Shown here in pieces: positions 39,785 to 62,429 of a stretch of 64,000 bases of DNA (positions are counted from its first letter, which is position 1; each line of letters starts with the position of its first letter). The notes under the pieces are model-generated. The model searched no databases. It saw only the letters and a list, made by a program, of their open reading frames with translations, and had not been told where the DNA came from. The DNA lies in NCBI RefSeq assembly GCF_002277025.1, contig NZ_NIWD01000003.1:50355-114354 (forward strand), read 5' to 3'. Source of the stretch: Sphingopyxis sp. GW247-27LB (GTDB taxonomy: Bacteria; Pseudomonadota; Alphaproteobacteria; Sphingomonadales; Sphingomonadaceae). A program made the position numbers and the translations under genes.

Positions 39785-40747
39785 ATGAATATCCACAAGA
39801 TCGTCATAGCCGGGCCGCCCGGCGCCCAGACGTTTCTGGAGAGGCTCGCATCGGCGGTCGCGTCGGACAAGGTCCGGATCGACTTGCAGTTCGGGCTGTC
39901 CACGCCCACCGACGCACCGGGTTGGAGCGAAACGCAAATCCTTGTCTCGTTCGGAGTGCCCTGCACCGGAGCCGATATGGATGCGGCCCCCCGCCTCAAG
40001 GCGATCATCACGCCGTCACTCGGCTATGAGGGCATCGATGTCGAGGCGGCGCACAGCCGCGGAATCGCCTTTGCCAACGGCCGCGTCGCGGAGAATTTCG
40101 AGTCGGTCGCCGAGGCTGCGGTGCTGTTCATGCTGACGTCGCTCTACCGGCTCCGCGAGGCAGAGGAGCGCCTCCGCCGCGACGAGGTTCGCACGGGACC
40201 GCCCCGCGCGCGAATGCTCAAAGGCAAGACCGTCGGGATCATCGGCCATGGCAATATCGCCAAGGCGCTGATTGAACGTCTGCAAGGATGGGAGACACGC
40301 ATATTGCTCTGCAATCGTTCGCGGGTTCCTCCTTCGCCGGCTTTCGAGCAATGCGATCTCGATACGCTCGTCGCGCAAAGCGACCTTGTCCTGCCGCTGC
40401 TGCCGCTCACGCCCGGAACCGACAAATTGCTGTCCCGTGCGAGGCTGCTCGCCATGAAGCCGGGTGCAATCCTCATCAATCTCTCGCGCGGCGCGATCGT
40501 CGACGAGAACGCCCTCGCCGACCCCGAAGTGACCGCCCATCTCGGAACGATTGCGCTCGACGTCTTCGTCACAGAGCCTTTGCCGGCGGACAGTCCGCTT
40601 CGCGACCTCCCCGACCAGCTTCTGACCAATCACGAAATCTCGCACACGCAGGAAAATCTTGGCGCGCTCTTCGCGATGGCGGTTGCCAATGTCGAGGCTG
40701 CGATCGCGGGCGCTCCCATGCCGACCACGTTCAAGGCCGGGAGCTGA
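39785..40747 (+). CDS. D-isomer-specific 2-hydroxyacid dehydrogenase (NAD-dependent)
   Basis: A 320-residue member of the D-2-hydroxyacid dehydrogenase family, interconverting a D-2-hydroxyacid and a 2-oxoacid with NAD(P). The Rossmann motif is GIIGHGNIAKAL (about residues 146-157). The catalytic set appears as Arg in INLSRGAIVDE, Glu in DVFVTEPLP and His in LTNHEISHTQ. It starts the catabolic island and converges with the MFS gene, their ends overlapping by 17 bases. The substrate is unknown. Confidence 0.85.
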   Translation: MNIHKIVIAGPPGAQTFLERLASAVASDKVRIDLQFGLSTPTDAPGWSETQILVSFGVPCTGADMDAAPRLKAIITPSLGYEGIDVEAAHSRGIAFANGRVAENFESVAEAAVLFMLTSLYRLREAEERLRRDEVRTGPPRARMLKGKTVGIIGHGNIAKALIERLQGWETRILLCNRSRVPPSPAFEQCDLDTLVAQSDLVLPLLPLTPGTDKLLSRARLLAMKPGAILINLSRGAIVDENALADPEVTAHLGTIALDVFVTEPLPADSPLRDLPDQLLTNHEISHTQENLGALFAMAVANVEAAIAGAPMPTTFKAGS

Positions 40748-41999
40748 GAATCCGGTCTAGCCGCTTGCCGGAGACCGCATCCTGTTCCTCCCGACAACCA
40801 TCCGCCGGTCGTCGTTCCCGCCGAAGGCCCAGCATGAGTAGTGCCGCCAGGCCGACCAGCAGCGCGCTCACCGTCAGCGCGGCGTCATAGTCGCCGCTCG
40901 CATCGCGCATCTTCCCCATAGCGAAGGGACTGAGTCCGTAGCCGAGCGCGAAGACGCTATATTGCCATCCGTATATCGCGCCATATTGGCGCTGCCCAAA
41001 ATGCAAAGCGGTCAGATAAGCCAGGAGGTCGATTTCGGCGCCGGCCGCCATGCCGAGCAAGATGGCCGCGACGGTTCCCATCGCGAGGCCATCTACCAAC
41101 AGGAGGCCGATTCCGACGGCCGCGAGGGCAAGTACCGCCAGAGAGACGATTGCGGCCGGGAAGCGGTCGAGGAGCATGCCGATTCCTAGCCGCCCGACTA
41201 CGCTGGACAGTCCGACCAGCGAGGCGGTCGCGGCCGCCTGCACAGGGTCGGCTCCGAGATCACGGAACAGCGGCACGAGGTGGACCACGACCCCACCAAG
41301 CCCCGCGGCCATCGCGAAGGAAATGACGGTGAGCAACCAGAATCGCCCGGTGCTGCGCGCTTCCCTCGCCGTCATGCCGGCCGGCCCGACATCGGACACA
41401 CTCGCACGTCGGCCTTGCGCCACGCTGCGAAACCCGAACCAGACGATCGGGGCCGTGACGATCGCAATCGCGGCGAGCGCAAGATAGGCGGCGCGCCAGC
41501 CGGCCACCTCGGTGACCCCGGCCACCAGCTGCGGAACCCAGAAACCCGCAAGTCCCGCGCCCGTGAGCGCGAAGCCGAGGGCCAACCCCCGTTGCTTTTC
41601 GAACGCTGCGGCAATGGGCCGGACAAGCACGATCGGCGTCGATCCGACACCGAGAAGCGCGATGACGGTGTAGAGCGCCCAGAAGAGATGGATGCTTCCC
41701 GCCGTGGCGACGAGAAGGATCACGCCCAGCGCATAGGCGACCAGGCTCGCCGCGCCGACGTTGGCGGCACCGTACCGGTCGCAGAGCCGTCCGGCAGCCG
41801 AGCCGGACACGAACACGGCAAGCGTCATCAGCGTCACCGCGAGCGATATGTCGCCGCGACTCCAGCCGAATTCGACCTCGAGCGATGGAATGAAGCTGCC
41901 GAGGCTGTAAAAGAGGGTCGCCGTCATGCCGGCCGACAGGCCGATCGCCGCGCTGGCGAGCAGGAAGCTCTTGCCGCCGAACTCGCCCGGCAGGGTCAT
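40731..41999 (-). CDS. MFS transporter
   Basis: A 422-residue major facilitator with twelve predicted helices. Between helices 2 and 3 it has GRLCDRYGAANVG, the conserved MFS loop motif, and a related VGRLGIGMLLDRFPA in the second half. It resembles bacterial monocarboxylate- or oxalate/formate-type transporters. It is the last gene of the long leftward operon (ATGA overlap with the EthD gene), so it likely moves the pathway substrate or a product across the inner membrane. Confidence 0.85.
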   Translation of the reverse strand: MTLPGEFGGKSFLLASAAIGLSAGMTATLFYSLGSFIPSLEVEFGWSRGDISLAVTLMTLAVFVSGSAAGRLCDRYGAANVGAASLVAYALGVILLVATAGSIHLFWALYTVIALLGVGSTPIVLVRPIAAAFEKQRGLALGFALTGAGLAGFWVPQLVAGVTEVAGWRAAYLALAAIAIVTAPIVWFGFRSVAQGRRASVSDVGPAGMTAREARSTGRFWLLTVISFAMAAGLGGVVVHLVPLFRDLGADPVQAAATASLVGLSSVVGRLGIGMLLDRFPAAIVSLAVLALAAVGIGLLLVDGLAMGTVAAILLGMAAGAEIDLLAYLTALHFGQRQYGAIYGWQYSVFALGYGLSPFAMGKMRDASGDYDAALTVSALLVGLAALLMLGLRRERRPADGCREEQDAVSGKRLDRILSSRP

Positions 42000-42727
42000 G
42001 GGGCAGCTGCTATTCCGTAAACCGCCCTCACAACCGCGTCGCTCAGCTGGTTCTCGGCTCCGGCCTCCTCGATCGTCTTCACAGCGTCGAGACCGCGCAG
42101 TCCGACCGGCGTCGGTCTGCCGTCCTCCACCATCACATGTCGCTCATCAAGAAGATAGGCCGATGCGTCGAGCTTCCCCGCCGCCGCGATCGCGCTGTCC
42201 CGGTCCGGCCAGATCCCGTGCAGCAAGGCGGCGAAAGTCCTGCCGCTCGCATCGGTCTGATTCCACCCCGCGGGATCGCCGCCCGTGAGGTCGTAGACCG
42301 CCAGATATGCGGGCGCCTCGCCAAGCGCCGCAAGATCGGCATTGAGGTCGGCGCCCGCCTCGATGACGATAAACATCGTCTGCCCCTCGGCATCCGCGTT
42401 GCCGCTGATCCGGCGCGAGGCCCCCTCACCCAGATTGTAGAGAAGCGCCCGGCGGAAGACATTCTGCTCGTCGCGATGGATATGCTGGGTCACCTCGCTG
42501 TGGATGAGGCCTGCACGGTCATCCTCCGAGCAATAAGTGACGATCGCGATCCCCTCGAAAGGCTCGGACGCCGCATCGAGCGGGGTCACATGATGCTGCG
42601 TGTAGCTGTCGAACCCCGGAATCCTCGCGGCCATGACCCCGTGAACATCGCGCCAGTAGCGTGTGAAGAGCGAGCGCGAGACGTCGGGACGTCGCTCGAT
42701 CAGGGCGACGGTGCTCACGCCGACCAT
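41996..42727 (-). CDS. EthD-domain protein
   Basis: A 243-residue protein whose first half is an EthD/ferredoxin-like dimeric alpha-beta barrel domain (TRYWRDVHGVMAARIPGFDSYTQHHVTPL, about residues 22-50). The second half looks like a degenerate repeat of the same fold. EthD domains occur in ether-degradation clusters and in aromatic polyketide cyclases or monooxygenases. Its start lies 13 bases inside the end of the EthD-SDR gene. Function unknown. Confidence 0.72.
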   Translation of the reverse strand: MVGVSTVALIERRPDVSRSLFTRYWRDVHGVMAARIPGFDSYTQHHVTPLDAASEPFEGIAIVTYCSEDDRAGLIHSEVTQHIHRDEQNVFRRALLYNLGEGASRRISGNADAEGQTMFIVIEAGADLNADLAALGEAPAYLAVYDLTGGDPAGWNQTDASGRTFAALLHGIWPDRDSAIAAAGKLDASAYLLDERHVMVEDGRPTPVGLRGLDAVKTIEEAGAENQLSDAVVRAVYGIAAAP

Positions 42728-43836
42728 AATGCCCCCTCGACCGGCAGTATCGATCCCGACACATAAGCGCCTGCCCGCGATGCGAGAAACACGACGGCCC
42801 CGCCGATATCGCCTTCGTTGCCGAGGCGTTCCGCGGGAATTCCCTCGATCATCTGATCCTTCAGCCCGGGAACCGCCGTGAAGAAACCGTCGGTCATGTC
42901 ACTCGGGAAAAATCCCGGCGCGACGGCATTCACGTTGATGCCCTTGCGGGTGAGATCCGACGCCAGCGCGCGCGTGAGCTGGTGCAGGCCGCCCTTGGCA
43001 GCGCTATACGCATAAGCACTGCTGCTCCTCGCCCAAAGCGCGGCGATCGATCCGATATTGATCACCCGCGCCGGATCGCCCTCGCGCGCCGCGGCGGTCA
43101 GCTCTGGCAGCAGCGCCTGGACAAGGAAGAAGGGCGCGCGGAGGTTGATATCCAGTTCACGGTCCCATTGCTCCGGCGTGATCGCGTCGACAGGTGCGGC
43201 CGTGAAGCTTCCGGCGTTGTTGACGAGGATATGCAGCGCGTCGGTTTCGCGCCGCACCGCCGCGGCCGCATCCGCCGGCCCTGCGCTGGTCGAGAGGTCG
43301 CAAGGCACCAAAATGCCCCCATGCTCTGCCGCGAACGCCCGATTAGCCTCGCCGTCGCGCGCGACGATGAGGACCCGGACGCCCGCGGCGGCGAGCGTGC
43401 GGCTGATCATCGCCCCGACCCCCTTGGCACCGCCGGTGACAACCGCCGTCTTGCCGCGCAGATCGAACAATCCGGTCGGCGGCGCAACCACCGGGTTCGC
43501 GCGGGTGAGGAAGGACTGGCAGTTTTCGAGATCGACGAAATTGCCTTCGTCGGGCTGGACATCCGCCAGATAGGCGGGTTCGGCAAAGGCTTGTTCCATC
43601 GCCGCGGAATTTTTGAAATCGAGCACCGCGACACCGTCATATTCGCCCGAAACGCCGAACAGCCTTGCGATCGGAGAATCGCGGCCGGTGAGCGCATGCT
43701 GGGTGTAGCTGTGCAGATGCCGCGTGAAGTCGGTACAGCGCCTGAGCAGGGGGCCATGTTTGTCCTGCCAATAGGAGGTGAACGCCTCATGGCTCAGTCC
43801 CGGCTTGCGCTTGATGCAGACGATAAGTGTCGTCAT
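42715..43836 (-). CDS. EthD-SDR fusion protein
   Basis: A 373-residue two-domain protein. Residues 1-105 form an EthD domain (TSYWQDKHGPLLRRCTDFTRHLHSYTQH). Residues about 120-373 form a classical short-chain dehydrogenase with the cofactor motif VVTGGAKGVGAM, NNAGS, a Ser in INIGSIAALW, Tyr/Lys in YAYSAAKGG and C-terminal GAYVSGSILPVEG. The ATG at 43836 overlaps the aldehyde dehydrogenase stop as ATGA. The fusion suggests the EthD partner acts on the same small molecule as the oxidoreductase (inference). Confidence 0.82.
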   Translation of the reverse strand: MTTLIVCIKRKPGLSHEAFTSYWQDKHGPLLRRCTDFTRHLHSYTQHALTGRDSPIARLFGVSGEYDGVAVLDFKNSAAMEQAFAEPAYLADVQPDEGNFVDLENCQSFLTRANPVVAPPTGLFDLRGKTAVVTGGAKGVGAMISRTLAAAGVRVLIVARDGEANRAFAAEHGGILVPCDLSTSAGPADAAAAVRRETDALHILVNNAGSFTAAPVDAITPEQWDRELDINLRAPFFLVQALLPELTAAAREGDPARVINIGSIAALWARSSSAYAYSAAKGGLHQLTRALASDLTRKGINVNAVAPGFFPSDMTDGFFTAVPGLKDQMIEGIPAERLGNEGDIGGAVVFLASRAGAYVSGSILPVEGALWSA

Positions 43837-45248
43837 GCTTGGACTGCCGGCTTTGCGACGTTGATCGTCTGGAGCGCCAGATAGGGATAGAGGCCCTCGA
43901 CTCCGCCCTCGACCCCGAAACCGGACTGCTTGTTCGCCGGAAACGGAACCTGCGGGTCGAGCGCGCAATGCTGGTTCACCCAGGCGCTGCCGCTCTCGAG
44001 CCGGGCGGCAACGGCGGTCGCAGCGGCGACATCGCTGCCCCACACCGAACCGCCGAGCGCGAAGGGCGAGGCGTTGGCGCGCGCCACCACATCATCGATA
44101 TCGCTGTAGCGAATGATCGGCAGGATCGGCCCGAACGGTTCCTCATCGACGATCGCCGAGCCATCGGCCACATCGCGCACCACCGTCAGCGGCACGAAAT
44201 AGCCGGGTCCGCCGGCGACCTCGCCGCCCGCGACGACCCTGCCCGCCTTGCCCGCTTCGGCCAGATAATGGAGCACTTTTTCATATTGCGCCTTGTTCTG
44301 CACCGGCCCGAACTCGGCCGCCGCATCGCTTCCCGGCGCCAGCTTGGCCGATGAAGCCAGGCCCGCCATCGCATCGCACATCGCGTCGTAGAGGCTGTCG
44401 TGGACATAGAGCCGCTTGATCACCGCGCAGACCTGACCCGAATTGAAGAAGGCGAAGGCAAAGATGGCGGGCGCGATCGCCGCGACATCGGCGTCGGGCA
44501 GTACTATCGCAGCGTCGTTGCCGCCAAGTTCGAGCGTCACGCGCTTCAGCGTCGGCGCCGCCGATGCCATGATCTTGCGACCGGTCTCGGTCGATCCAGT
44601 GAAAGTGATCTTGGCGACGTCTTCGTGCGCGACGAGCAAGGCGCCGGCGTCGTTGCCGCCCGACAGGATGTTGACCACGCCGGGCGGCACGACCTCGGCC
44701 CAGAGTTCGCCGAGCCGCAAGGTGGTGAGCGGCGTCGTCGGCGCCGTCTTGACGACGATCGTGTTGCCGGCCGCGAGCGCGGGCGCGATCTTGTTGGCGG
44801 CGATGAAGACGGGGGCGTTCCACGGCACGATCGCGCCCACCACGCCCAGGGCTTTGCGATGCAGTTCGACGCGGCGCGTGTCATCCTCGACAATCAGCTC
44901 GGGTTGAACTTCGAGCCCGGCATAATAGGTGAGATAACCGGTCGCCAGATGCAGGATTTCGAACTGTGCGAGTCCCATCGGGCGCCCGGTTTCCTGAACA
45001 AGCAGCGCGCAAAGCTCTTCGGCATTGTCCACGACCTTCGCGGCCATCGCGCGCAGAACGTCGCCGCGCGCGCTGGGGGCCAGATCGCGCCAGGCGGGAA
45101 AGGCCGCCTTGGCGGCGGCGACCGCGCGTTCGACGTCGGCCGCATCGGCGTCGGGAACCTGGGTGAAGACGGCGCCGGTGCACGGATCGACGACGTCGAG
45201 CGCCCGGCTCCCCTCCACAAGTTCTCCGCCGATCAGCATCCGGACCAT
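43833..45248 (-). CDS. Aldehyde dehydrogenase family protein
   Basis: A 471-residue NAD(P)-dependent aldehyde dehydrogenase. Catalytic Cys274 (FFNSGQVCAVIKRL) and general-base Glu240 (TLELGGNDAAIVL) are present, with the cofactor loop FTGSTETGRKI. The usual KPSE cofactor motif reads KTAP here (about residue 167). It is the middle gene of the leftward operon, 16 bases after the IOR-like gene, and probably oxidises a pathway aldehyde. Confidence 0.9.
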   Translation of the reverse strand: MVRMLIGGELVEGSRALDVVDPCTGAVFTQVPDADAADVERAVAAAKAAFPAWRDLAPSARGDVLRAMAAKVVDNAEELCALLVQETGRPMGLAQFEILHLATGYLTYYAGLEVQPELIVEDDTRRVELHRKALGVVGAIVPWNAPVFIAANKIAPALAAGNTIVVKTAPTTPLTTLRLGELWAEVVPPGVVNILSGGNDAGALLVAHEDVAKITFTGSTETGRKIMASAAPTLKRVTLELGGNDAAIVLPDADVAAIAPAIFAFAFFNSGQVCAVIKRLYVHDSLYDAMCDAMAGLASSAKLAPGSDAAAEFGPVQNKAQYEKVLHYLAEAGKAGRVVAGGEVAGGPGYFVPLTVVRDVADGSAIVDEEPFGPILPIIRYSDIDDVVARANASPFALGGSVWGSDVAAATAVAARLESGSAWVNQHCALDPQVPFPANKQSGFGVEGGVEGLYPYLALQTINVAKPAVQA

Positions 45249-45264
45249 GTCATTCTCCTCATTG

Positions 45265-48200
45265 TCAGGCGGTCAGAGCCACCCGATTGTCGTCCTTGTT
45301 CGCCTCGGGAGCCGCCGCGGCGTTGCGGAACCGCTCGACCACGCTCGCCTCGAGCGTGCGCACGCGATCGACCGCCGCTTCCTTCACATGGCCATAGCCA
45401 CGGATCTGGGCCGGCAGACTCGCCGCTTCGACGGCGAACTTGTGGTTGGCCGGGGTGAGCGCCGCAGCCATGCCTCGCAGCCGCGCCTCATATTCGTCGA
45501 TGAGCGCGCGCTCCATCTTGCGCTCGGCGGTATAGCCGAACGGGTCGAGCGCGGTACCGCGTAGCCGCTTGCCCTTCGCGAGCAGCGGAAACAGCTTTCC
45601 GACCCACGGGCCGAACTCGCGCTTCAGCAAATGCCCCGTCGCGGGATCGCGCTTCGAGAAGAGCGGCGGCGCGAGATTGTACCGAAGCTTCGCACCATCC
45701 TCGAACGTCGAGGCGAGTTCGCGCTTGAACGCAGGATCGGCATGAAGGCGCGCGACCTCATATTCATCCTTGTATGCCATGAGCTTGGCGAAGTTGCGCG
45801 CGACCATGACGGCGAGCGCCGTGCTGCCGGGCAGCACCCGCTCCTCGGCAGCCGCGACCGCATCGACGAGCGCGCGGTAGCGCGCCGCATAGGCCGCATT
45901 CTGGTAGGCGGCGAGCAATGCCGTGCGGTGTGCCACGATGTCGCCGAGGTCGGTAAGCGGCTTGAACTCGGGCGCCGTCAGGGTGGCGGCGGCCGCGGCA
46001 TCGACTTTCGCCGGATTGACGACGAGAAGACGCCCGAGCGCAAAGGCCGACTGATTGAAGGCGACGGCGACCCCGTTGATTTCAACCGCGCGCGCGATCG
46101 AAGCCGGCGAAACCGGCAGCAGCCCGAGCTGCGACGCATAGCCGAGCATGAAGAGGTTGGCGGCGATCGTGTCGCCGAACAAGGCAAGCCCCAGCCCGGT
46201 CGCATCGACCCCATGCAGTCCGGCCGAGAGCTTTTTCAGGCGATCGACAATCAGGCTCTGGTCGAGCACGAGGTCGGGATTGCGCTGAAAGGCCGGGGTC
46301 GGCGTGATGCGCGCGTTGACGACCGTCGTGGTCCGCGCCGCCGAAAAGGTGACGACGGGTTCCTTGGCCAGCGCCGCGACGGCGTCGAAGGCGAGCGCCA
46401 GATCCGCCTCTCCAGTGCCGAGTTTCTGCGCCGCGAGGTCACCCGCCGCAGCTGCGATCCGGACATGGCTGTAGACCGCGCCATTCTTCTGGCTGAGCCC
46501 GGTCATGTCGAAGACCGAACAGGCGAGCCCCTCGAGGTGCGCCGCCATGCCGAGCAAGGCGCCGACGGTTACAACGCCTGTGCCGCCGATCCCCGACACC
46601 ATGATATTGAATGCGCCGTCCGAAATCGCGGCCAATGCGGGTTCGGGAAGGTCCGTCTGTGCCTCGCCCGCCAGCGCCGAGACCTTGGGCTTGCGCGGCT
46701 CCGCGTCGAGCACGGTGATGAAGCTCGGGCAGAAGCCTTTGACGCAGCTATAATCCTTGTTGCAGTTCGACTGGTCGATCTGGCGCTTGCGGCCGAGTTC
46801 GGTTTCCTTCGGCCAGACGCTGACGCAGTTCGACTGGACCGAGCAGTCGCCGCATCCCTCGCAGACGGCGCTGTTGATGAACATACGCTTGGCCGGATCG
46901 GGAAATTTGCCGCGCTTGCGGCGGCGGCGCTTCTCGGCGGCGCAGGTCTGTTCGTAAACGATGACGGTCACGCCCTTCACCTCGCGAAGTTCGCGCTGCA
47001 ACGCATCGAGTTCGTCGCGATGATGGACGGTGACGCCTTCGCCAAGGCCGCTGTTCGCATCGTAGAGATCGGGCCGGTCGGTGACGACGATGCAGCGCTC
47101 GACGCCTTCGGCGAGCACCTGCCGCGTGACGTCGCCGGGGGTCAGCGGTCCGTCGACCGGCTGGCCGCCGGTCATCGCCACCGCGTCGTTGAACAGGATC
47201 TTGTAGGTCATGTTGACCTTCGCCGCCACCGCGCCGCGGATCGCCAGCAGGCCCGAATGATAATAGGTGCCGTCGCCGATATTCTGGAAGATGTGCGGCG
47301 TCTCGGTGAAATGAGCGAGGCTGTACCAATGCGCGCCCTCGCCGCCCATTTGCGTGTTGGGGAGCATTTCGGGGCCCGAGTACATCGCCATGGCGTGGCA
47401 CCCGATGCCCCCGCCGGCGAGGCTGCCTTCGGGAAAGCGCGTGCCCGTATTGTGCGGACAGCCAGAGCAGAAATAGGGAGCGCGCACGGCGTCCCCGGGC
47501 TTCTGACCCGCGACCTTCGTCATCGCGGCGCGGAGGCCTTCGACGCGCTCCGCGATGGCTGGCGGCTCGCTTCCCAGCCGGCGGAGCCGCTCGGCGATGA
47601 CAAGGGCGAGTTGCAGCGGATCGAGCTGCTCGTCGCTCGGGATCATGAAGGCGCCGGTCTCGTCGGTCTTGCCGACGATCGCCGGCGCCCCCGGGCGCCC
47701 GTAGAGGATCGCCTTGGCCTGCGCCTCGGTGAGACCCTCCTTTTCCTCGACGAACAGGAGTTCGGCCTGACCTTCGGCAAATTCGGCGAGCCCTTCGCGC
47801 TCGACCGGATACATGCAACCGAGCTGATAGAGCGAAATACCGAGCGCCGCCGCGTCGACGTCGGAAAGGCCGAGAAGTTTCAGCGCCTGGCGCGCATCCT
47901 GGACCGCTTTTCCGGTCGCGACGATCCCGAGCTTTCGCGCGCCATTGTCGATCAGCACTCGGTCGATGCCGTTCGCGCGCACGAATTTCTCGACGAGCGG
48001 CCAGCGGAAACGTTTGGCGACGATCTCCGACTGCACCCGGTCGAGATGGGTCGGAAAATTGTGGAAGCCGTTCGCGGGCGCGACACCACGCTCGGGCAGC
48101 ACCGGCCCGTTATCGAGCTGCGGGAGTTCGACCGTCATCGTCTGCTCGAGCACTTCGTTGCACATCTTGAAGCCGGTGAAGAGACCGGTGTAGCGCGACA

Positions 48201-50859: not shown

Positions 50860-51167
50860 AGGCTGACAAAGACGTCATCGCCGTCGATCCGCACCGGATA
50901 GCGTTCGAGGACGATGGAATCGTCTTCCTGACATTCGCCGGATTCCAGATCGAACGTCCAGCCGTGCCAGGGGCAGGTCAGGATCGTGCCATCGACGTCG
51001 CCCTCATGCAGCGGACCCTCGGCGTGCGGGCACTGGCCGTTGGTCGCGATCACCCGCCCGCGGCACATGAAGAGCGCCACATCCTGCCCGCCCGCCTCGG
51101 TGAGCACGGGCTCGCCGGCCTCGACGGCGGCCAGCGACCCGATGCGATATTCCTTCGTATCGGTCAT
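50856..51167 (-). CDS. Rieske-type [2Fe-2S] ferredoxin
   Basis: A 103-residue single-domain Rieske protein. The cluster ligands are Cys-x-His (NGQCPHAEGPLH) and Cys-x2-His (LTCPWHGWTFD). It can carry electrons to a dioxygenase or a P450. No dioxygenase is in the island, so the P450 at 56518-57768 or another enzyme could be its partner (inference). A GTG at 51179, overlapping the previous stop as GTGA, is an alternative start. Confidence 0.9.
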   Translation of the reverse strand: MTDTKEYRIGSLAAVEAGEPVLTEAGGQDVALFMCRGRVIATNGQCPHAEGPLHEGDVDGTILTCPWHGWTFDLESGECQEDDSIVLERYPVRIDGDDVFVSL

Positions 51168-51175
51168 GGCGGCGA

Positions 51176-51592
51176 TCACCCGGGGATCGCGTCGAGTTGC
51201 TGCAGCACCGGAATGGCGTCCCAGATGCTGCGTTCGAGGATGATCTTGCCGTCGTCGTTCCAGCCCATGACGGTCACGCCGCGGGTCTTGGTGACCTTGC
51301 CCTTGGCATCGACGCCCAGAAAATCGCCGGCATGCTTGGTTTCCCAAGTCCACTGGAAAGATCCGAGGCGGTCGTCGCCGACATAGTCGAACACGTCGAA
51401 CTTGTTATAGCTGAGCGACGGGTCCTCGATGATGAAGCCTTCGAAAAAGGAACGCAGCGCCGGGAGGTCATTGTTGATCCGGAGGTCGAAATTGACGTCC
51501 TCGAACTGGAATTCGGGGGCGTAGAGCGTCATCAGCTCGTCGGTCCCGTCGGCGAAGAGCCCGATCCAATATTGCGCCCACTGCTTGTTCAT
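51176..51592 (-). CDS. SnoaL-like (NTF2-fold) protein 1
   Basis: A 138-residue NTF2-fold protein (LYAPEFQFEDVNFDLRINNDLPALRSFFEGF, then WETKHAGDFLGVDAKGKVTKTRGVTVMGW). The family includes polyketide cyclases, ester cyclases and epoxide hydrolases. The ATG at 51592 follows GGAGG, which sets the start. It is the first gene of the long leftward operon. It is related in style to the 235-residue protein at 58022-58729. Confidence 0.78.
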   Translation of the reverse strand: MNKQWAQYWIGLFADGTDELMTLYAPEFQFEDVNFDLRINNDLPALRSFFEGFIIEDPSLSYNKFDVFDYVGDDRLGSFQWTWETKHAGDFLGVDAKGKVTKTRGVTVMGWNDDGKIILERSIWDAIPVLQQLDAIPG

Positions 51593-51665
51593 TTCATGCC
51601 TCCGTAGTTCGGCCTTGTCCTGCGACGCCGGATGGCGCCGCACTTTCCGATCATCTCAAAAATGT

Positions 51666-51694
51666 CCGTCCCCGGCAAAGCCTGTCGGGGACGG
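51666..51694 (-). terminator. Terminator or attenuator between TonB receptor and SnoaL gene
   Basis: Nine-base perfect arms (CCGTCCCCG and CGGGGACGG) are followed on the minus strand by ATTTTT. It lies 17 bases past the receptor stop and about 75 bases before the next operon gene, where no good promoter is obvious. Confidence 0.7.
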
Positions 51695-51710
51695 CAAGGC
51701 GGGGGAGAGA

Positions 51711-53990
51711 TCAGAAGTTGAACCGCCCTTCGACGCCGAGGTGGCGGGTCTCGGCGCGCGATGTCAGCTGGAACACGCCGAGCAGCGGAAGGACGGAACG
51801 GTTGTATTTCTCGTTGAAGATATTCTTGCCGAAGAGCGACAGGCTCCAGCGATCGGCCTTGGCGAGCGTCAGCCGCGCATCGACGAGGTCGACGGGGCTG
51901 CGCCGCGAACCCGGCGTGTTGATGACATCCCACCAGGTCGACCCGATACGGACATATTCGACCCGCGGCGTGAGCATGAGATCATTACCGAGATCGAAGT
52001 CGTGCGTGATCCCCGCGTTCAGATTATATTTGGCCGCGTTGGGCGCCCGGTTCCCCACATAGGCGGGGTTCGCGGCGAACGCCCGCACCTTGCCGTCGGT
52101 ATAGCCATAAGCGCCGAAAATCTGCGGCCCGCCGGGGATGTGCCAGTTGAAATCGACCTCGAAACCGCGCAGGCGCACCTTGTCGATCGAGGTGGTCGTC
52201 TGGAGACCCGCCGAAGGGAAGAATTCGAACTGCTGAGCGCCCGACACATTGGTCGTGAACGCCGCGATATTGAGGCTGAGCGAACGGTCGAACAGCCGGA
52301 GCTTCGTCCCCACCTCCCATGACGTGGATTTTTCGGCATCGAACTGGTCCTGCACGAAGACCTGGGATCCGGGCGGCGCGACGGCAAGCAGCGCGGCGCG
52401 GCTGCCCAGCGGGTTGAAGCCGCCGCTCTTGAAGCCCTTGCCATAGCTTGCGTAAACGCTTCCCGTCCGGCCGAGATCATAGGAAATGCTCGCCTTCGGC
52501 TCGAACTCCTTGAAGGTTTCCGAAGCCTGGCAATCGGCCAGCGTCGTGCCGGGACCCCGCGCCTGGATACAGAGATTGTAATTGGCGCCCGTCACCGGGT
52601 TGATCGCGTCGGGTGCCAGTTCGACGACGCTGCGCTTCTCGATATCGTAGCGGCCCGCAAGATTGAGGTGCAGCTGGTCGGTGACGTCGAACTGGACGCT
52701 GGCAAAGGGGGCGAAGCTCTCGGTCTTGTAGGCCTGGCGCGCGTAGGAGACGGTCGCCCCGATGATCGGATCGCCCGGCGCGTCGATACCGTCGGAAGGC
52801 GGAACGATCCCGACGAGATCCTGGTTGAGCTCGCTGATCTGGCCGCGCTTGAAGTTGAGATAATAGAGGCCGACTTGCCAGCGGAATCGCTGGTCGTCGG
52901 GCGACGTCAGCCGCAGCTCCTGAGAGAAATTCTTGTCGCGATATTTATAGCCCTGCACCGTCGAGCCCGGCGTCCCCGAGTCTGCGAGATAGGGCGGCGA
53001 ATCCCCGCCGAAGAACTGGTAGAGCTTGTCGGCGGCGGTCACCGAGGTAATCGTCGCCCAGCCCATGTCATAATCGATCTTGAGCGAACCGGCGACGAGC
53101 CACTCGTCGAGCTGACCCTGGACATTGGTCACGAACGGCAAATCGGTGCGGTCGGCGTCGAGTTCGTTGACGGGGATGCCGCCAATCGGCAGGCCGACGA
53201 ACTGCGACTGCAGCGCGGTCGAACCTCCCTTGGTATCGTGCCCGCTGAGCTTGAAATCGACCGTCAGCCCGTCCGCGGGCTCCCAATAGAGGCGCGCCTG
53301 GCCGAGCACCGTGCGGAGGCGATACGGCTTTTCCCCCGTCGTGATGTTGGTGAAAGGTCCGTCGGTATCGCGAAACGACGCGGCGAGACCGAAGCCGAGC
53401 GTATCGGTCAGCGGACCGCTGACTTCGGCCTGGGCCCGCGCGGTGTTCCAGCTGCCATAGCCCGCGAGCACCGAGCCCCCGAGTTCCGCGCGCGGCAGCT
53501 TAGTCGTGACGACGATGGCGCCGGCGGCGGCGTTGCGGCCGTAAATCGCGCTTTGCGGCCCCTTCAGCACTTCGATCTGCTGGATATTGAACAGATCCTG
53601 GTTGAATTGCTTGAGGCTCGACAGTTGAACGCCATCGATGACGACGGCGACATTGGGGTCGGAGTTGCGAACCGAAGTCTGGCCGCGGATATTGGTGAAG
53701 CTGTCGCCGGTGGCTTCATCGATGAAGGTCACGTTCGGCGTCGAGATCAGATAGTCTTGCGGCCGGACGATACCCTTGGCGGCAATATCTTCGTCGGTGG
53801 TCACCGACACCGCGATCGGAACCTGGCTCAGATTCTCGTTCCGCTTCGTAGCCGTCACGATGATATCGGTCGGATCGCTGGCCTCGGTGGCCGGTGCCGC
53901 TTCGGTCTGCGCCATCGCGGGCGCGGCCGTCAGTGCCATGCCGACGACCCAGGCCGCCGACGCGCGATAAAGATAACCTCTGGTGCGCAT
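51711..53990 (-). CDS. TonB-dependent receptor of the catabolic island
   Basis: A 759-residue outer-membrane receptor. Signal peptide (about residues 1-28, ending AMA), a TonB-box-like ATEASDPTDIIVTATKR, the plug (NIRGQTSVRNSDPNVAVVIDGV, IEVLKGPQSAIYGRNAAAGAI) and the barrel ending in GVEGRFNF. The plug is typical of receptors for hydrophobic or aromatic carbon sources in sphingomonads. The ATG at 53990 follows AGGAGAGG; a much longer frame upstream is not coding. It faces the AraC gene divergently and lies upstream of the leftward operon. Confidence 0.9.
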   Translation of the reverse strand: MRTRGYLYRASAAWVVGMALTAAPAMAQTEAAPATEASDPTDIIVTATKRNENLSQVPIAVSVTTDEDIAAKGIVRPQDYLISTPNVTFIDEATGDSFTNIRGQTSVRNSDPNVAVVIDGVQLSSLKQFNQDLFNIQQIEVLKGPQSAIYGRNAAAGAIVVTTKLPRAELGGSVLAGYGSWNTARAQAEVSGPLTDTLGFGLAASFRDTDGPFTNITTGEKPYRLRTVLGQARLYWEPADGLTVDFKLSGHDTKGGSTALQSQFVGLPIGGIPVNELDADRTDLPFVTNVQGQLDEWLVAGSLKIDYDMGWATITSVTAADKLYQFFGGDSPPYLADSGTPGSTVQGYKYRDKNFSQELRLTSPDDQRFRWQVGLYYLNFKRGQISELNQDLVGIVPPSDGIDAPGDPIIGATVSYARQAYKTESFAPFASVQFDVTDQLHLNLAGRYDIEKRSVVELAPDAINPVTGANYNLCIQARGPGTTLADCQASETFKEFEPKASISYDLGRTGSVYASYGKGFKSGGFNPLGSRAALLAVAPPGSQVFVQDQFDAEKSTSWEVGTKLRLFDRSLSLNIAAFTTNVSGAQQFEFFPSAGLQTTTSIDKVRLRGFEVDFNWHIPGGPQIFGAYGYTDGKVRAFAANPAYVGNRAPNAAKYNLNAGITHDFDLGNDLMLTPRVEYVRIGSTWWDVINTPGSRRSPVDLVDARLTLAKADRWSLSLFGKNIFNEKYNRSVLPLLGVFQLTSRAETRHLGVEGRFNF

Positions 53991-54089
53991 CAATCCTCTC
54001 CTCATTATGGCATCGTCGGCCTTTGCGGCGCTATCTGCCTTCCTCGCAGCGTGCATCGGATATCGCGGCGGCAAACGACAGGGCGCGGC

Positions 54090-54197
54090 GTGCCAAGGCA
54101 AAGCCGTTCGGGACAAAGCGACACGTTCGGCATGAATTGATCGCCCGACAGGCCAATCGTGACATCGGTGACCGGTTGGCCTATCTGCATGCCAAGG
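54090..54197. promoter_or_regulatory. Divergent TonB/AraC control region with repeated motifs
   Basis: The 225-base divergent spacer (53991-54215) has TGCCAAGG at 54091 and 54190, CACGTTCGGC at 54122-54131 and an inverted repeat AGGCCAA...TTGGCCT at 54150-54182. The first two motifs recur in the P450/SnoaL spacer. They are candidate binding sites for the adjacent AraC regulator. Confidence 0.4.
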
Positions 54198-54215
54198 GAA
54201 AATAATGAGGATCGG

Positions 54216-55262
54216 GTGACTGAAACGGAATCCAAGTCCGGACTGACGGGGTGGGTGCTGGCGATCGTGAGGGCGATGCGCGCCAGTGGTATCGATCCCG
54301 ACCGGGTGCTGAGCGAGATCGGCATGGACCCCGCCCGCCTCGAAGGCGGCTATGGGCGCTATTCGCAGGAACAGATCAGCATGTTGTGGCGCAAGGCGGT
54401 AGCGCTGAGCGACTCCGACTTCGCCCTCCGGGTCGCCGCGGAGGTCCGGCCCTCGACATTCCACGTCGTGGGTTATGCCATGAGCTGCTCGGCAACGCTC
54501 TCGCGGGCGCTCCACCGGTTCGCCTTCTATTGCAGGCTCATTTCGGATTCGGCGACGGCCACGCTCACGGAGTCGGGCGATCAGGTGACGCTGTCGATCT
54601 TCTTCGACACGGGCGGCGAGCCGCCCATCTATCAGACGGTCGATACGGTGCTCGCCTCGGTACTCGGCTATCTTCGCTGGATCGCGGGCATTCCCATCAC
54701 ACCGATCTCGGTCAGTCTTGCGCATCCCAAGCCTCGCCGGGGCGACGGGCTGGAAGCGTTTTTCGGTTGTCCCGTCGCCTATGGACAGCCTGAGGATGCG
54801 ATCGTTTTTGCACGGGCCGATCTCGACCGGCCGATCCTCGTCGCGGACGAGGAACTGGCGTCGTTGCTCGATGGCGTCGCGAACCGCTATCTGGAGACGC
54901 GGATGGCCGGCCGCTTCGCCGTCCGCGTCCGTGATGCGCTGATCGCCCGCATGCCCGACGGGATGGTCCGCAAGAGCGATATCGCAAAGAGCCTGCATAT
55001 GACCGAGAGGACTTTGCTCAGGCGACTGAAGGACGAGGGCACGACCTTTTCCGATGTGCTCGACCGCGTGCGTCTGCAGCTTGCTTTCCAATATCTGAAG
55101 CGGAGCGATCTCGTCATTCGCGATATCGCCTATATGCTCGGCTTCTCCGACGAAGGGACTTTCTCCCGCGCGTTCAAGCGCTGGACCGGCCGCCGACCCA
55201 GTGTGGTCGCCCAGATGAAAGCCGACGAGATCGTCGAGGTCGCCCGCAAACTCGATATCTAG
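54216..55262 (+). CDS. AraC-family transcriptional regulator
   Basis: A 348-residue regulator. The N-terminal arabinose-binding-like (PF12625-type) domain spans about residues 10-200, and the C-terminal double helix-turn-helix about 245-340 (DIAKSLHMTERTLLRRLKDEGTTFSDVLDRVR, then IAYMLGFSDEGTFSRAFKRWTG). The start chosen is the GTG at 54216, which has AGGA close upstream; ATGs at 54159 and 54189 are alternatives. It is the only regulator in the island and probably activates its operons in response to the substrate. Its 3' end overlaps the convergent FMN dehydrogenase gene by four bases. Confidence 0.87.
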   Translation: MTETESKSGLTGWVLAIVRAMRASGIDPDRVLSEIGMDPARLEGGYGRYSQEQISMLWRKAVALSDSDFALRVAAEVRPSTFHVVGYAMSCSATLSRALHRFAFYCRLISDSATATLTESGDQVTLSIFFDTGGEPPIYQTVDTVLASVLGYLRWIAGIPITPISVSLAHPKPRRGDGLEAFFGCPVAYGQPEDAIVFARADLDRPILVADEELASLLDGVANRYLETRMAGRFAVRVRDALIARMPDGMVRKSDIAKSLHMTERTLLRRLKDEGTTFSDVLDRVRLQLAFQYLKRSDLVIRDIAYMLGFSDEGTFSRAFKRWTGRRPSVVAQMKADEIVEVARKLDI

Positions 55263-56479
55263 GCGTGCCGCAAGGCGGGGCCGGGCCGTTCAAAATCGCG
55301 CGCCTCCGCCTCGTTCGCGAGGAACGCGGGCGCTGCACCTGCAAGCCGCACATGCTCGCGACCGAGATCCGCCAGCGACGGGCATCCGATCAGCGCCAGG
55401 GTACGCAGCGTCTCCTGCTTCATGCCCCCGAGCCAGCGCTCGACCCCCGCGGCGCCGAAGGCGGACAGGGCGTAAAGATAGGGGCGCCCCGTCATGCAGG
55501 CGCGCGCGCCCATCGCGAGGGCCTTGACGATATGGCTCCCCCGGCGAATGCCGCCGTCGAGGATCACCTCGACCCGGTCGCCCGCCGCGTCAGCGATATC
55601 GGCCACGAGGTCGATCGTCGCCGCGCCGCCGTCGAGCTGCCGTCCGCCATGGTTGGAAATGATGACCGCACTCGCTCCCGCATCGGCGGCGCGTAGCGCA
55701 TCGTCGCCGCACTGCAGGCCCTTGATCGCAAAGGGTCCTCCCCAATAGGCCGCAATCTTGGCGATCCGCTCCCAGCTGATATGCGATTCCATCTTCGAAG
55801 CGAAGAAGGCGGCGAGCGTCGACAGATCGCCCTCGCCGCTCGCCGTCACATTGGGCAACGAGAATTTCCCGCCGCCGAGGTAGCCGAGGCACCAGCCGGG
55901 CCGCTTGGCAAAGGATGCGAGCGAAGCCGGGGTAAGCCGGGGCGGTACGGTGAGGCCCGAGCGCAGGTCGCGCTCGCGGTTGCCCGCGACGATCGTGTCG
56001 ACCGTCAGGCAGAGCGCATCGAAGCCCGCCGCCTTGCAGCGATCGATGCTGGCGAAGTTCAGGGCATCGTCGGCGAGCAGGTAAAGCTGATAGATTTTGG
56101 GGCCGGCGCTGATCGCGCCGATCTCCTCGATCGATGCCGTCGCCATCGTCGACAGGGCGTAGCCGCAGCCCGCATCGGCTGCCGCGATCGCCACCCCCTG
56201 TTCGCCGTCGGGATGGAACATCCGGCTCATTCCCGTCGGCGCAAGGATGAGCGGCCATTCGAGGTCGCAGCCGAGAACGCGGGTGGCGGCATTCACCCGC
56301 GTCACATCGGTCATGTAGCGCGGAACGAGGTCGTAGCGGTCGAAGGAGGCCACATTGGCCGCCGCCGTCTTTTCGTCATCGGCCGCCCCGCAGATATAGT
56401 CGAAGAGCGGCCGCGGCAGGCGGCGCCGCGCGGCGTCCTCATAGTCAGCGGTGCCGTAGCACTGCGCCAGCCTTGGCAT
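55259..56479 (-). CDS. FMN-dependent L-2-hydroxyacid dehydrogenase (lactate/mandelate type)
   Basis: A 406-residue alpha-hydroxyacid-oxidising TIM-barrel flavoenzyme. The FMN/active-site signature SNHGGRQLDGG carries the catalytic histidine. Also present are LAPTGMSRMFHPDGE (for the usual LAPTGM/A block), CLTVDT and VILDGGIRRGSHIVKAL. It would oxidise an L-2-hydroxyacid to a 2-oxoacid. The ATG at 56479 follows GGGAG. It lies 38 bases after the P450 gene, so they are probably co-transcribed. Confidence 0.9.
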   Translation of the reverse strand: MPRLAQCYGTADYEDAARRRLPRPLFDYICGAADDEKTAAANVASFDRYDLVPRYMTDVTRVNAATRVLGCDLEWPLILAPTGMSRMFHPDGEQGVAIAAADAGCGYALSTMATASIEEIGAISAGPKIYQLYLLADDALNFASIDRCKAAGFDALCLTVDTIVAGNRERDLRSGLTVPPRLTPASLASFAKRPGWCLGYLGGGKFSLPNVTASGEGDLSTLAAFFASKMESHISWERIAKIAAYWGGPFAIKGLQCGDDALRAADAGASAVIISNHGGRQLDGGAATIDLVADIADAAGDRVEVILDGGIRRGSHIVKALAMGARACMTGRPYLYALSAFGAAGVERWLGGMKQETLRTLALIGCPSLADLGREHVRLAGAAPAFLANEAEARDFERPGPALRHA

Positions 56480-56517
56480 TTTGCCCACTCCCCTGTTCGA
56501 GCTTCCGCGCGAGCGGC

Positions 56518-57768: not shown

Positions 57769-57862
57769 ATGTCTCTCCGCATGCGTGGCGGCGCCGGGCG
57801 CCATCCTCTTTCTGGTTGATGGAAAGCCTATGGGCAGCAAGCGCCGCCCCCAAGGGCCAGCC

Positions 57863-57918
57863 GTGCCACGAAAAAGCAGAGGGTGCCAAAGATTTGGGTT
57901 CGCTGGCACGTTCGGCCT
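57863..57918. promoter_or_regulatory. Divergent P450/SnoaL control region with TGCCA direct repeats
   Basis: GTGCCA occurs at 57863 and again at 57883, exactly 20 bases apart, followed by CACGTTCGGC at 57907-57916. The latter and GTGCCAA also occur between the TonB and AraC genes. Direct repeats about two helical turns apart suit AraC-family activators. Confidence 0.4.
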
Positions 57919-58021
57919 CGCCGTGACCCCTTCTGCCGTGGCAAAGCCCATATAGCAGGATAATTTGCGGGAACGCAGAACGGGCCAGGCCCGCACGGTT
58001 CCGGACGAGAGAGGAAGAAAC

Positions 58022-58729
58022 ATGCATTTTCTATATGCCGCCCATGTCACCGACGACCATCTGACGCCCGATCAGCAGCGGGTGCTGCGCGGCCTGCGCG
58101 CGCCCGCCATGGCAACGGACGTCGACACGCCTTCGCACAACAGCCGCCCGAAGGATTTCGACAGCGCCCAGGACTGGGTCACCGCCTTCTTCGACAAGGG
58201 AGCCGAGGAAGTGCTCGGCTATTATGCCGACGATTTCGTCTGGGAAGATATCGAGTTCATGCAGACGATCACCACCAAGGAGGATCTTTACAAGGCCTTC
58301 GTCGTCTTCAACAATTCGGGGCCGGAATCGCCCTTCGGCGTCCACAAGTTCGAGGTGCTGAGCTATGACGGCGACCGCTGCCCGCGCCAGCATGCCCAGA
58401 CGCGACAGGGCCCGACCCCCGGCGAATTCCCCGAAGAGGTCTATCGCCGCTATGCGGACAATATCTTCCTCGGCGCCGACTTCGACTATGACGAATGGGG
58501 CTATATGCAGTGGATCTGGAAGGCCACGCATAACGAGGATTTCTTCGGCATCCCCGCCGCCGGCAAGACGACCTACACGCGCGGCACCACCACGCAATTT
58601 TATAGGGACGGCAAGATCGTGCGCTGCCGCACCCACTGGAACTTCCGCGAGTTCGCGATGCAACTCGGCGTGATCCCCTTCCCCGACGAAGCCTGGCGCA
58701 ACAATCCGGGCCTCGGCGAGCAGGGCTGA
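58022..58729 (+). CDS. SnoaL-like (NTF2-fold) protein 2
   Basis: A 235-residue protein. An N-terminal extension of about 45 residues is followed by an NTF2-like domain (DWVTAFFDKGAEEVLGYYADDFVWEDIEFMQTITTKEDLYKAF) and FFGIPAAGKTTYTRGTTTQFYRDGKIVRCRTHWNF near the C-terminus. The ATG at 58022 follows GAGAGGAAG. Family members catalyse cyclisation, isomerisation or hydrolysis of small cyclic compounds. It is coupled to the aldo/keto reductase (TGATG) and divergent from the P450. Confidence 0.78.
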   Translation: MHFLYAAHVTDDHLTPDQQRVLRGLRAPAMATDVDTPSHNSRPKDFDSAQDWVTAFFDKGAEEVLGYYADDFVWEDIEFMQTITTKEDLYKAFVVFNNSGPESPFGVHKFEVLSYDGDRCPRQHAQTRQGPTPGEFPEEVYRRYADNIFLGADFDYDEWGYMQWIWKATHNEDFFGIPAAGKTTYTRGTTTQFYRDGKIVRCRTHWNFREFAMQLGVIPFPDEAWRNNPGLGEQG

Positions 58730-59775
58730 TGCGCTATCGCCTGCTCGGGAAGAGCGGCCTACGCGTATCGCAGGTCGCGCTCGGCACCATGACCTTCGGG
58801 ACCGCGGCGGATTGGTCGCGTCCCGAAGAGGAATGCCGACCGGTGTTCGACGCCTTTGTCGAGGCTGGCGGCAATTTCATCGACACCGCCAACATGTACA
58901 CTGGCGGCGAGAGCGAGCGGATCGTCGGGCGGATGGTCGCATCCGATCGGGACCGGTTCGTGATCGCCAGCAAATATGCCAATGCGGTCCCCGGCGGCGG
59001 CGATCCCAATGCCGCCGGCATGCACCGCAAGAGCTTGGCACGTTCGCTCGATGCCAGCCTCCAACGCCTGGGAGTCGACTATATCGATCTCTATTTCGTG
59101 CATTGGTGGGATTTCACGACACCCGTGGAAGAGGTCCAGCGGGCACTCGACGACGCGGTGAGCGCCGGCAAGATCCTCCATGTCGGACTGTCCGATGTGC
59201 CGGCGTGGGTGGTATCGCGGGCACAAGCCTTCCACGATTTGCGCGGACTGGTGCCCGTGAGCGCGATGCAGCTCGAATATAGCCTCGTCCAGCGCTCGAT
59301 CGAACGCGAGCATCTGCCCCTCGCGGCCGCCCACGATATCGGCGTGACGGCCTGGTCGCCGCTGGCCGGCGGCATCCTGACCGGCAAATATACGCGCGCG
59401 GCCGACGCCAGCGGCAACAATCGTATGGACAGTATGCAGCTCCAGCCCTTGGACGAGCGCAATCGCGAGATCGCCGAAGCGGTCGACAGAATCGCCGACG
59501 GGTTGGGCGCCTCATCGGGCCAGGTGGCACTTGCCTGGATGATGGCGCGCGGCGTCATTCCGATCGTCGGCGCGACCCGCGCAGATCAGCTGAAGGAGAA
59601 TCTGCGCGCGGTGGATCTCGTGCTGAGCGACGAGACTCTGGCAGCGCTGGATGCGGCCAGCACGTTTGATGCCGGCCATCCATACAGCATGCTCGAGTGG
59701 GAGATGCCCATGGCCCTCGGCTATGGTGGGATGTTCGATCACATCGACATTCCCCGCTTCCCGGGACGGCGCTGA
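58729..59775 (+). CDS. Aldo/keto reductase
   Basis: A 348-residue NADPH-dependent aldo/keto reductase. The catalytic tetrad is Asp52, Tyr57 (DTANMYTGG), Lys82 (IASKYANA) and His125 (LYFVHWWD). The C-terminal cofactor loop is IVGATRADQLKENL. It resembles the large AKR group acting on ketones and mycotoxin-like or aromatic substrates. Its ATG overlaps the stop of the SnoaL-like gene. Confidence 0.9.
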   Translation: MRYRLLGKSGLRVSQVALGTMTFGTAADWSRPEEECRPVFDAFVEAGGNFIDTANMYTGGESERIVGRMVASDRDRFVIASKYANAVPGGGDPNAAGMHRKSLARSLDASLQRLGVDYIDLYFVHWWDFTTPVEEVQRALDDAVSAGKILHVGLSDVPAWVVSRAQAFHDLRGLVPVSAMQLEYSLVQRSIEREHLPLAAAHDIGVTAWSPLAGGILTGKYTRAADASGNNRMDSMQLQPLDERNREIAEAVDRIADGLGASSGQVALAWMMARGVIPIVGATRADQLKENLRAVDLVLSDETLAALDAASTFDAGHPYSMLEWEMPMALGYGGMFDHIDIPRFPGRR

Positions 59776-62400: not shown

Positions 62401-62429
62401 GCATGTTCCTTCCATCGGAAAGGTTAAGG

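Follow-up and report, generated by a model that had tools for sequence, protein, structure and literature searches.

A conserved sphingomonad gene island that may channel D- and L-2-hydroxyacids to acyl-CoA through a fused 2-oxoacid oxidoreductase

Organization of the island

The 64,000-nucleotide stretch of the Sphingopyxis sp. GW247-27LB genome that was analysed here (contig NZ_NIWD01000003.1, positions 50,355 to 114,354; hereafter the window) contains a 16-gene island at positions 39785-59775, in which three unrelated types of 2-hydroxyacid dehydrogenase are encoded together with a fused 2-oxoacid oxidoreductase. An earlier note on this DNA had listed these enzymes along with an aldehyde dehydrogenase, a glutathione S-transferase (GST), a Rieske ferredoxin, a cytochrome P450, two SnoaL-like proteins, an aldo-keto reductase (AKR), a major facilitator superfamily (MFS) transporter, a TonB-dependent receptor and an AraC-family regulator, and domain matches place every one of them where the note had put it. 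The note also named two EthD proteins; both are present, and one of them is a fusion to a short-chain dehydrogenase (SDR) that had been overlooked.

Ten of the genes form a nearly gapless run on the minus strand (gaps of -13 to +118 bp), which begins with the TonB-dependent receptor (51711-53990; PF00593/PF07715) and continues with SnoaL-like protein 1 (SnoaL1, 51176-51592; PF07366), the Rieske-type ferredoxin (50856-51167; PF00355), a flavin adenine dinucleotide (FAD) enzyme that resembles GlcD and D-2-hydroxyglutarate dehydrogenase (GlcD, 49450-50859; PF02913/PF01565), the GST (48752-49453), a fused indolepyruvate-type 2-oxoacid:ferredoxin oxidoreductase (IOR, 45265-48759), the aldehyde dehydrogenase (43833-45248; PF00171, 5e-139), the EthD-SDR fusion dehydrogenase (42715-43836; PF07110 plus PF13561/PF00106), an EthD-domain protein that is kept in the cluster (41996-42727; PF07110) and the MFS transporter (40731-41999; PF07690), which is monocarboxylate-transporter-like and has as its best NCBIfam match SfMCT (1.1e-33, under the cut-off of that model).

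A flavin mononucleotide (FMN)-dependent L-2-hydroxyacid dehydrogenase (55259-56479; PF01070, 2.5e-125) and the P450 (56518-57768; PF00067) are encoded by a separate minus-strand pair, while the plus strand carries the araC gene (54216-55262; PF12625 and PF12833), the pair formed by SnoaL-like protein 2 (SnoaL2, 58022-58729; PF07366) and the AKR (58729-59775; PF00248), and a nicotinamide adenine dinucleotide (NAD)-dependent D-2-hydroxyacid dehydrogenase (39785-40747; PF02826 at 2.7e-41, PF00389). The likely start positions are 51592 for SnoaL1, 53990 for the receptor, 57768 for the P450, 58022 for SnoaL2 and, as judged by eye, ~54216 for AraC. This arrangement likely comprises five transcription units that are driven from three promoter regions, which lie 5' of the NAD-type gene, between the receptor and araC genes, and between the P450 and SnoaL2 genes.

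Three unrelated dehydrogenases and a fused oxidoreductase

The NAD-, FAD (GlcD)- and FMN-type dehydrogenases belong to three unrelated families, as the earlier note had claimed, and the catalytic residues are retained in all three, which look functional by this measure. Here and for the IOR and P450 proteins below, we take the residues counted to have the catalytic or metal-site roles by which they are named. The FMN enzyme has the domain of its family, six catalytic positions (Tyr, Tyr, Arg, Lys, His, Arg) are identical in 10/10 orthologues, and the nearest structures are those of lactate, glycolate and mandelate enzymes. GlcD contains the FAD and C-terminal domains, with its His/Asn/Glu metal-site and active-site motifs present in 12/12 sequences, or in 11/12 at three positions where one sequence is incomplete; a thirteenth GlcD (from Sphingopyxis G837) was left out of this count owing to an incomplete stretch. 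The nearest solved structures to GlcD are a putative oxidoreductase and human mitochondrial D-2-hydroxyglutarate dehydrogenase (PDB 6lpn), which belongs to the same sequence family and shares the conserved FAD and metal-site motifs. The NAD enzyme has two domains and an Arg-Glu-His triad (R235, E264, H283) that is kept in 4/4 sequences, a count that excludes the S. italica copy, and its nucleotide-binding motif reads GHGNIA, with Ala replacing the third Gly. Its nearest structure is that of phosphoglycerate dehydrogenase, followed by glyoxylate and hydroxyphenylpyruvate reductases, and members of this family frequently act as reductases.

The IOR is an alpha-beta fusion that scores far above the curated cut-off for the fused aerobic enzyme of the PRK13030 type (NF009589, 1537.7 bits against 816), and its thiamine pyrophosphate and Cys (4Fe-4S) motifs are invariant in 17/17 sequences, three of which are from outside the module. 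The P450 motifs are kept in 16/16 sequences; its best structure match is 6gmf and the second is 4rm4, both of which we take to be CYP109 enzymes, a family presumably active on fatty acids and terpenoids. A model of SnoaL1 (pLDDT 93) gave SnoaL-type hydroxylases and cyclases as the best PDB matches in a fold search, with limonene-epoxide hydrolase, which would represent a conceivable alternative role for this protein, at rank 24.

A second fused IOR, 53% identical to that of the island, is encoded on contig C15 of the same genome (L042 9960-15389) beside what appears by eye to be a ring-hydroxylating dioxygenase pair, so that this locus is apparently another catabolic cluster.

A tandem element in all three promoter regions

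Each of the three promoter regions contains a tandem element, CGTGCCA-N13-CGTGCCA, with a 20-bp period, a repeat that emerged when the two intergenic regions between divergent genes were aligned among relatives. Within the window, plus-strand sites are found at 39675-39701, 83 bp 5' of the NAD-type gene, at 54089-54115, between the receptor operon and araC, and at 57862-57888, between the P450 and SnoaL2 genes. A 21-bp spacing was also tried, and was set aside for 20 bp when it gave a single weak site in the window. The site at 39675 is independent of motif discovery, which used those at 54089 and 57862, and an upstream site is present in 5/5 NAD-type orthologues (the own gene included), though the sequence between the half-sites varies.

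When up to one mismatch is allowed, a search of 25 cluster stretches at the 20-bp period yields 15 sites, of which 14 fall in promoter windows, while other spacings yield 0 to 3 sites, except for 8 at spacing 22. With up to two mismatches, 26/33 sites fall in promoter windows, which make up 12.6% of the sequence, compared with a mean of 2.6/8.7 at twenty other spacings. A degenerate pattern that covers the three island sites has exactly 3 matches in the 4.79-Mb genome, all of them in the island, and the pattern read backwards gave one forward and one reverse match in the same genome. Among 13 other hand-chosen genomes there are 34 matches to the pattern, of which 18 lie within clusters by coordinates. 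The element's presence in each of the three promoter regions, the restriction of its pattern to the island within this genome and its recurrence upstream of NAD-type orthologues mean that co-regulation of these genes is well supported, including the outlying NAD-type dehydrogenase, and so is the proposal that the genes act as one unit. The AraC protein encoded within the island is predicted to bind the CGTGCCA element.

Distribution of the module

Comparative analysis indicates that the island is a module that, though conserved, is rare and patchily distributed. For these comparisons, the genes of relatives were called by a simple script and checked by tblastn, and some neighbour names were read by eye. 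A scan of ~85,000 named genomes for GlcD, which detects close relatives only, returned 17 loci, and the neighbourhood is common to the 8 with 69-91% identity but absent from the 9 with 38-51%. The distant loci were considered as possible forms of the module and rejected on that ground; three of them hold just an aldehyde dehydrogenase at 39% or an SDR piece at 37%; at one, on a Haliea contig, an FMN-enzyme fragment directly adjoins a GlcD fragment. In whole-genome searches that each counted the own genome, GlcD was found in 4/397 genomes of the family, 2/385 of the class and 5/80 of the genus, and the second genome of the class-wide search, G704 (52%), does not have the neighbourhood. Of the 397 family genomes, 5 have the P450 and 3 the FMN enzyme, and every genome with GlcD or the FMN enzyme also has the P450, an overlap with naive hypergeometric probabilities of 5e-9 and 1e-6 that are uncorrected for kinship.

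In all, 15 clusters were mapped in 14 genomes. The GlcD core is present in 13 of these, from genera that include Sphingopyxis, Sphingosinicella, Novosphingobium and Sphingobium as well as a Pseudomonas, so the neighbourhood extends to other genera; Sphingobium sp. 15-1 contains two clusters, and G357 has only the FMN-enzyme part of the module at a contig end, with no IOR in its assembly. The conservation of the arrangement in other genera, together with the common promoter element, indicates that the grouping of these genes is more than chance. A link to beta-oxidation is seen in 5/14 genomes (Pseudomonas sp. MYb185, Sphingobium sp. 15-1, S. cupriresistens, G177 and G363), where the module contains or adjoins thiolase or FadJ-type genes. 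A 71% thiolase match in Sphingosinicella soli was rejected as a module gene because, by eye, it is located in an apparent general beta-oxidation operon.

Plasmid sequences were also surveyed. Of 207 PLSDB records with a match to the IOR, one, Cupriavidus pBB1, reaches 60-80% (70%) and the others are below 60%; no IOR in this database reaches at least 73%, which is the level of the module's own IORs, and no match to the EthD-SDR protein reaches at least 60%. The pBB1 neighbours were rejected as a clue to the substrate, as its IOR belongs to a cluster of another kind and has no GlcD gene within 14 kb.

Several features of the surroundings can be added. Beyond the right end of the window, ~5 kb from the island, is a tyrosine integrase gene (PF13356, PF00589; L010 953-2164, or contig C2 ~115252-116463), and S. 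italica (L054) and G799 (L050) also have, by eye, similar integrases close to the module, which fits its mobility. In five genomes (L016, L019, L038, L040 and L015) the core has beside it a set of small membrane genes that includes a COX3-like one (PF00510), as judged partly by eye. The left edge of the island is flanked by a RES-domain gene (PF08808, 38516-39465) and an Xre/MbcA/ParS antitoxin-like gene (PF09722), which form a toxin-antitoxin pair of the Xre-RES type. Elsewhere in the window are an apparently truncated piece of a Baeyer-Villiger monooxygenase-like gene (63093-63860; weak NF045818 match), a short CHAT-domain protein (62403-62936; PF12770) that covers the C-terminal half of the profile only, and a tRNA-Ala (cgc) call by ARAGORN (18046-18125) within a long open reading frame (15589-18435), which is possibly false.

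Two front ends share one core

The core of the module has the gene order SnoaL-Rieske-GlcD-GST-IOR. The GST gene adjoins that of the IOR in 14/14 clusters with an IOR, and GlcD precedes this pair, directly or with the Rieske gene between, in 12/14. The P450 tree, on the other hand, resolves into two clades, A (10 rows, including the island protein) and B (6 rows), with support of 100/100, and each clade has its own surroundings. Clade-A P450 genes lie beside the FMN dehydrogenase, with SnoaL2 and the AKR on the opposite side, in 10/10 cases; those of clade B lie beside SnoaL1 in 6/6, adjoining GlcD or one Rieske gene away, and none is beside the FMN enzyme. A P450 fragment in S. cupriresistens (L019; 74%, residues 56-101) was excluded from the 10/10, having no adjoining FMN gene, and appears to be a relic of front end A.

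Sphingobium sp. 15-1 provides the clearest view of how these parts relate, as its cluster A contains a clade-A P450, the FMN enzyme, GST and IOR and its cluster B a clade-B P450, GlcD, GST and IOR. Each branch has its own GST-IOR pair, so both dehydrogenase types lead to an IOR. The earlier note had argued that both enantiomers are funnelled through one 2-oxoacid to an acyl-CoA; this idea gains support to the extent that the L- and D-type branches each reach GST-IOR, separately in this species, in agreement with two types of hydroxyacid. After cluster A in the same genome (L061 2124-5923) there are, by eye, an extra P450-like gene and a TonB receptor, with a one-mismatch copy of the element between them.

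In the island itself, the core is joined to front end A. The IOR and GlcD of the island are 94% and 92% identical, respectively, to those of the B-type Sphingopyxis G837, and its IOR is 93% identical to that of the A-type S. italica, a species whose strain DSM 25229 carries this same island. The closeness of the core to that of G837, set against an A-type front end, hints at an exchange of front ends, where the grouping of the two IORs in the tree has support of only 81/76.

Comparison with known systems

A described pathway with this gene set was not found in the literature searched, which consisted mostly of listings and of passages of two papers (PMC7793797; PMC8700777), and the statement in the earlier note that no known pathway could be matched still holds in that literature. 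Clusters for abscisic acid, for estrogen and from sphingomonads in general were weighed as candidates and rejected for want of a match.

The edc cluster for 17beta-estradiol in Novosphingobium (Caenibius) tardaugens NBRC 16725 encodes the P450 EdcA, the TonB receptor EdcT and the IOR-family protein EdcC, and in the passages seen EdcC is proposed to turn into an acyl-CoA a 2-oxoacid made by extradiol ring cleavage via EdcB (PMC7793797). As far as these passages describe it, edc is like the island in having a P450, a TonB receptor, an IOR-family enzyme, a sphingomonad host and divergent operons, where the two IORs are likened by family (NF009589) and described role rather than by sequence comparison. 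Unlike edc, the island has no EdcB-like extradiol dioxygenase domain among its 16 proteins, and it has three 2-hydroxyacid dehydrogenases while none is among the edc genes named in these passages (PMC7793797; PMC8700777). The regulators also differ, as the excerpted account of edc has a TetR-like repressor, EdcR, with a palindrome (PMC8700777), and the island has AraC and the tandem CGTGCCA element, with no TetR among its 16 genes. Without a dioxygenase or a TetR gene, the island would resemble edc in how the IOR step works but does not belong to that system.

Two other systems are instructive. The alpha-oxidation of phenylacetate via phenylglyoxylate in Thauera and Azoarcus is anaerobic and starts from phenylacetyl-CoA. 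It is like the route proposed below in that one carbon is lost via a 2-oxoacid and a 2-oxoacid:acceptor oxidoreductase produces the acyl-CoA; to our knowledge it involves neither a P450 nor paired D- and L-2-hydroxyacid dehydrogenases. The mandelate pathway resembles the island in using an FMN-type enzyme to oxidise an L-2-hydroxyacid to a 2-oxoacid, and the island FMN enzyme matches PDB 1huv and 6bfg, which we associate with FMN-type (S)-mandelate dehydrogenase. In that pathway, however, a non-oxidative decarboxylase follows rather than an IOR, and no P450 module is known there.

A proposed pathway and its alternatives

The reading that we favour, to which we assign a probability of just under one half (about 0.47), is that the island is one conserved module that would convert a lipophilic compound to D- and L-2-hydroxyacids, oxidise these to a 2-oxoacid and pass the product to the IOR to form an acyl-CoA. 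The substrate would enter through the TonB receptor, with the MFS carrier moving either the substrate or an acid intermediate. The P450, with the Rieske ferredoxin as its electron donor, would oxygenate the compound, after which the AKR, SDR and aldehyde dehydrogenase would generate a carboxylic acid with a neighbouring hydroxyl; alternatively, epoxidation of a terminal double bond may lead through a diol to a racemic 2-hydroxyacid, which would likewise call for both dehydrogenases. The L form would then be oxidised by the FMN enzyme and the D form by GlcD, both giving a 2-oxoacid of one kind, with the NAD enzyme balancing or supplementing these two. The GST-IOR pair would isomerise and oxidatively decarboxylate the 2-oxoacid to an acyl-CoA one carbon shorter, in a manner resembling alpha-oxidation, and beta-oxidation of the acyl-CoA would follow. 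A substrate-sensing AraC protein would turn on all of these units via CGTGCCA-N13-CGTGCCA.

Several observations weigh against this proposal. No characterised close relative was found for any of the island's enzymes, so their substrates are open, and the roles given to the GST and SnoaL proteins are guesses. An FMN gene is missing from 5 of the 13 GlcD clusters, so the core can do without the L branch; detection of the NAD-type gene was limited to 5/15 clusters; and the own genome has no dedicated thiolase (best match 48%) in a search that used one query and 8 hand-chosen genomes. Several of the mapped genomes are closely related, which means that the counts are not independent. As to the element, it was derived from two of its own sites, there is also an excess at spacing 22 (8 sites at one mismatch), and a fourth site in the window (59016, 2 mismatches), probably a chance occurrence, lies inside the AKR gene. 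In addition, 16/34 of the pattern matches in the other genomes fall outside clusters, about as many as in the backwards control (6 forward and 11 reverse, 17 in all), and three of these 16, on G150 contig 43, on G785 contig 1 at 350 kb and on G848 contig 2 at 843 kb, are beside other genes.

Ring-cleavage-type genes near the module in three relatives also count against the proposed route, and favour a ring substrate. A set of FAD-monooxygenase, VOC and FAA-hydrolase genes is found ~4-7 kb from the module in G837 (L049 13456-17271), where a LigB-type gene accompanies it, and in N. lentum (L059 15489-18798), the two sets being 63-72% identical to each other; N. lentum also has a ring-hydroxylating dioxygenase near the module; and in S. 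italica a dioxygenase of this type adjoins it, together with a VOC gene. These genes lower the odds of the favoured reading, and they lend weight to an estrogen-like alternative, in which the IOR, like EdcC, would act on a 2-oxoacid from ring cleavage, the dioxygenase gene would lie outside the island, and the hydroxyacid dehydrogenases would catalyse side reactions. That EdcC is itself an IOR clustered with a P450 and a TonB receptor in the passages cited (PMC7793797), and that the 70% identical IOR of Cupriavidus pBB1 is clustered with a gene that looks KstD-like by eye, point the same way. We nevertheless consider this alternative improbable. The ring-cleavage-type genes differ between the three relatives; the set of G837 and N. 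lentum is in no other fetched stretch, including the window and 60 kb around it, the rest of the own genome not having been searched; and GlcD adjoins GST-IOR, alone or with the Rieske gene between, in all but two of the 14 IOR clusters. Similar considerations bear on the suggestion in the earlier note that the island opens a cyclic or aromatic compound, which is not upheld by the gene content, as the 16 genes include no ring-cleaving or ring-hydroxylating dioxygenase and the P450 is nearest to what we take to be CYP109 enzymes, yet such genes are near the module in the three relatives, so that a ring compound is still conceivable.

It is also conceivable, though on balance unlikely, that two pathways share one regulator, with front end A (P450-A, FMN enzyme, AKR and SnoaL2) and the core (GlcD and IOR) serving different compounds or successive steps rather than enantiomers. 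Such an arrangement would account for the five clusters in which the core and front end B occur without an FMN gene (in Sphingobium sp. 15-1 that gene is in the other cluster) and for an own core nearest to that of the B-type G837 (IOR grouping 81/76) behind an A-type front end; it is harder to reconcile with an element common to the units, with the separate GST-IOR of front end A in Sphingobium sp. 15-1, by which the FMN branch also ends at an IOR, and with the direct contact of FMN-enzyme and GlcD fragments on the Haliea contig. Another reading is a stereo-inversion, in which the NAD-type enzyme is a 2-oxoacid reductase and, acting with the FMN enzyme, would convert L acids to the D form before GlcD oxidises them. 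This would suit an enzyme that is closest to the families of glyoxylate/hydroxypyruvate reductases and of phosphoglycerate dehydrogenase and whose gene has the same element upstream, but the detection of that gene in only a third of the clusters makes it a distant prospect. That unrelated genes are merely neighbours would agree with units on both strands and with an NAD-type gene convergent with the operon; given a linkage conserved across genera and an element in all three promoter regions, this seems extremely improbable.

Overall, the interpretation in the earlier note is partly supported. A more specific form of the proposed pathway, which we regard as speculative and rather unlikely in its full detail, is a previously undescribed aerobic alpha-oxidation, in which a P450 and enantio-complementary FMN (L), FAD (D) and NAD dehydrogenases would feed a fused IOR, so that a beta-blocked, isoprenoid-like acid would be shortened by one carbon, by a core that moves between genera with exchangeable uptake-and-P450 front ends and an AraC/CGTGCCA switch.

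Implications

If this proposal is true, aerobic bacteria would gain a route to acids that are closed to beta-oxidation, and the presence of three unrelated dehydrogenases beside a member of an oxidoreductase family known from the breakdown of aromatic amino acids and estrogen would be explained. The promoter element makes the regulon directly testable. In addition, the exchangeable front ends suggest that a single core may serve several substrates in the bacteria that carry this module.

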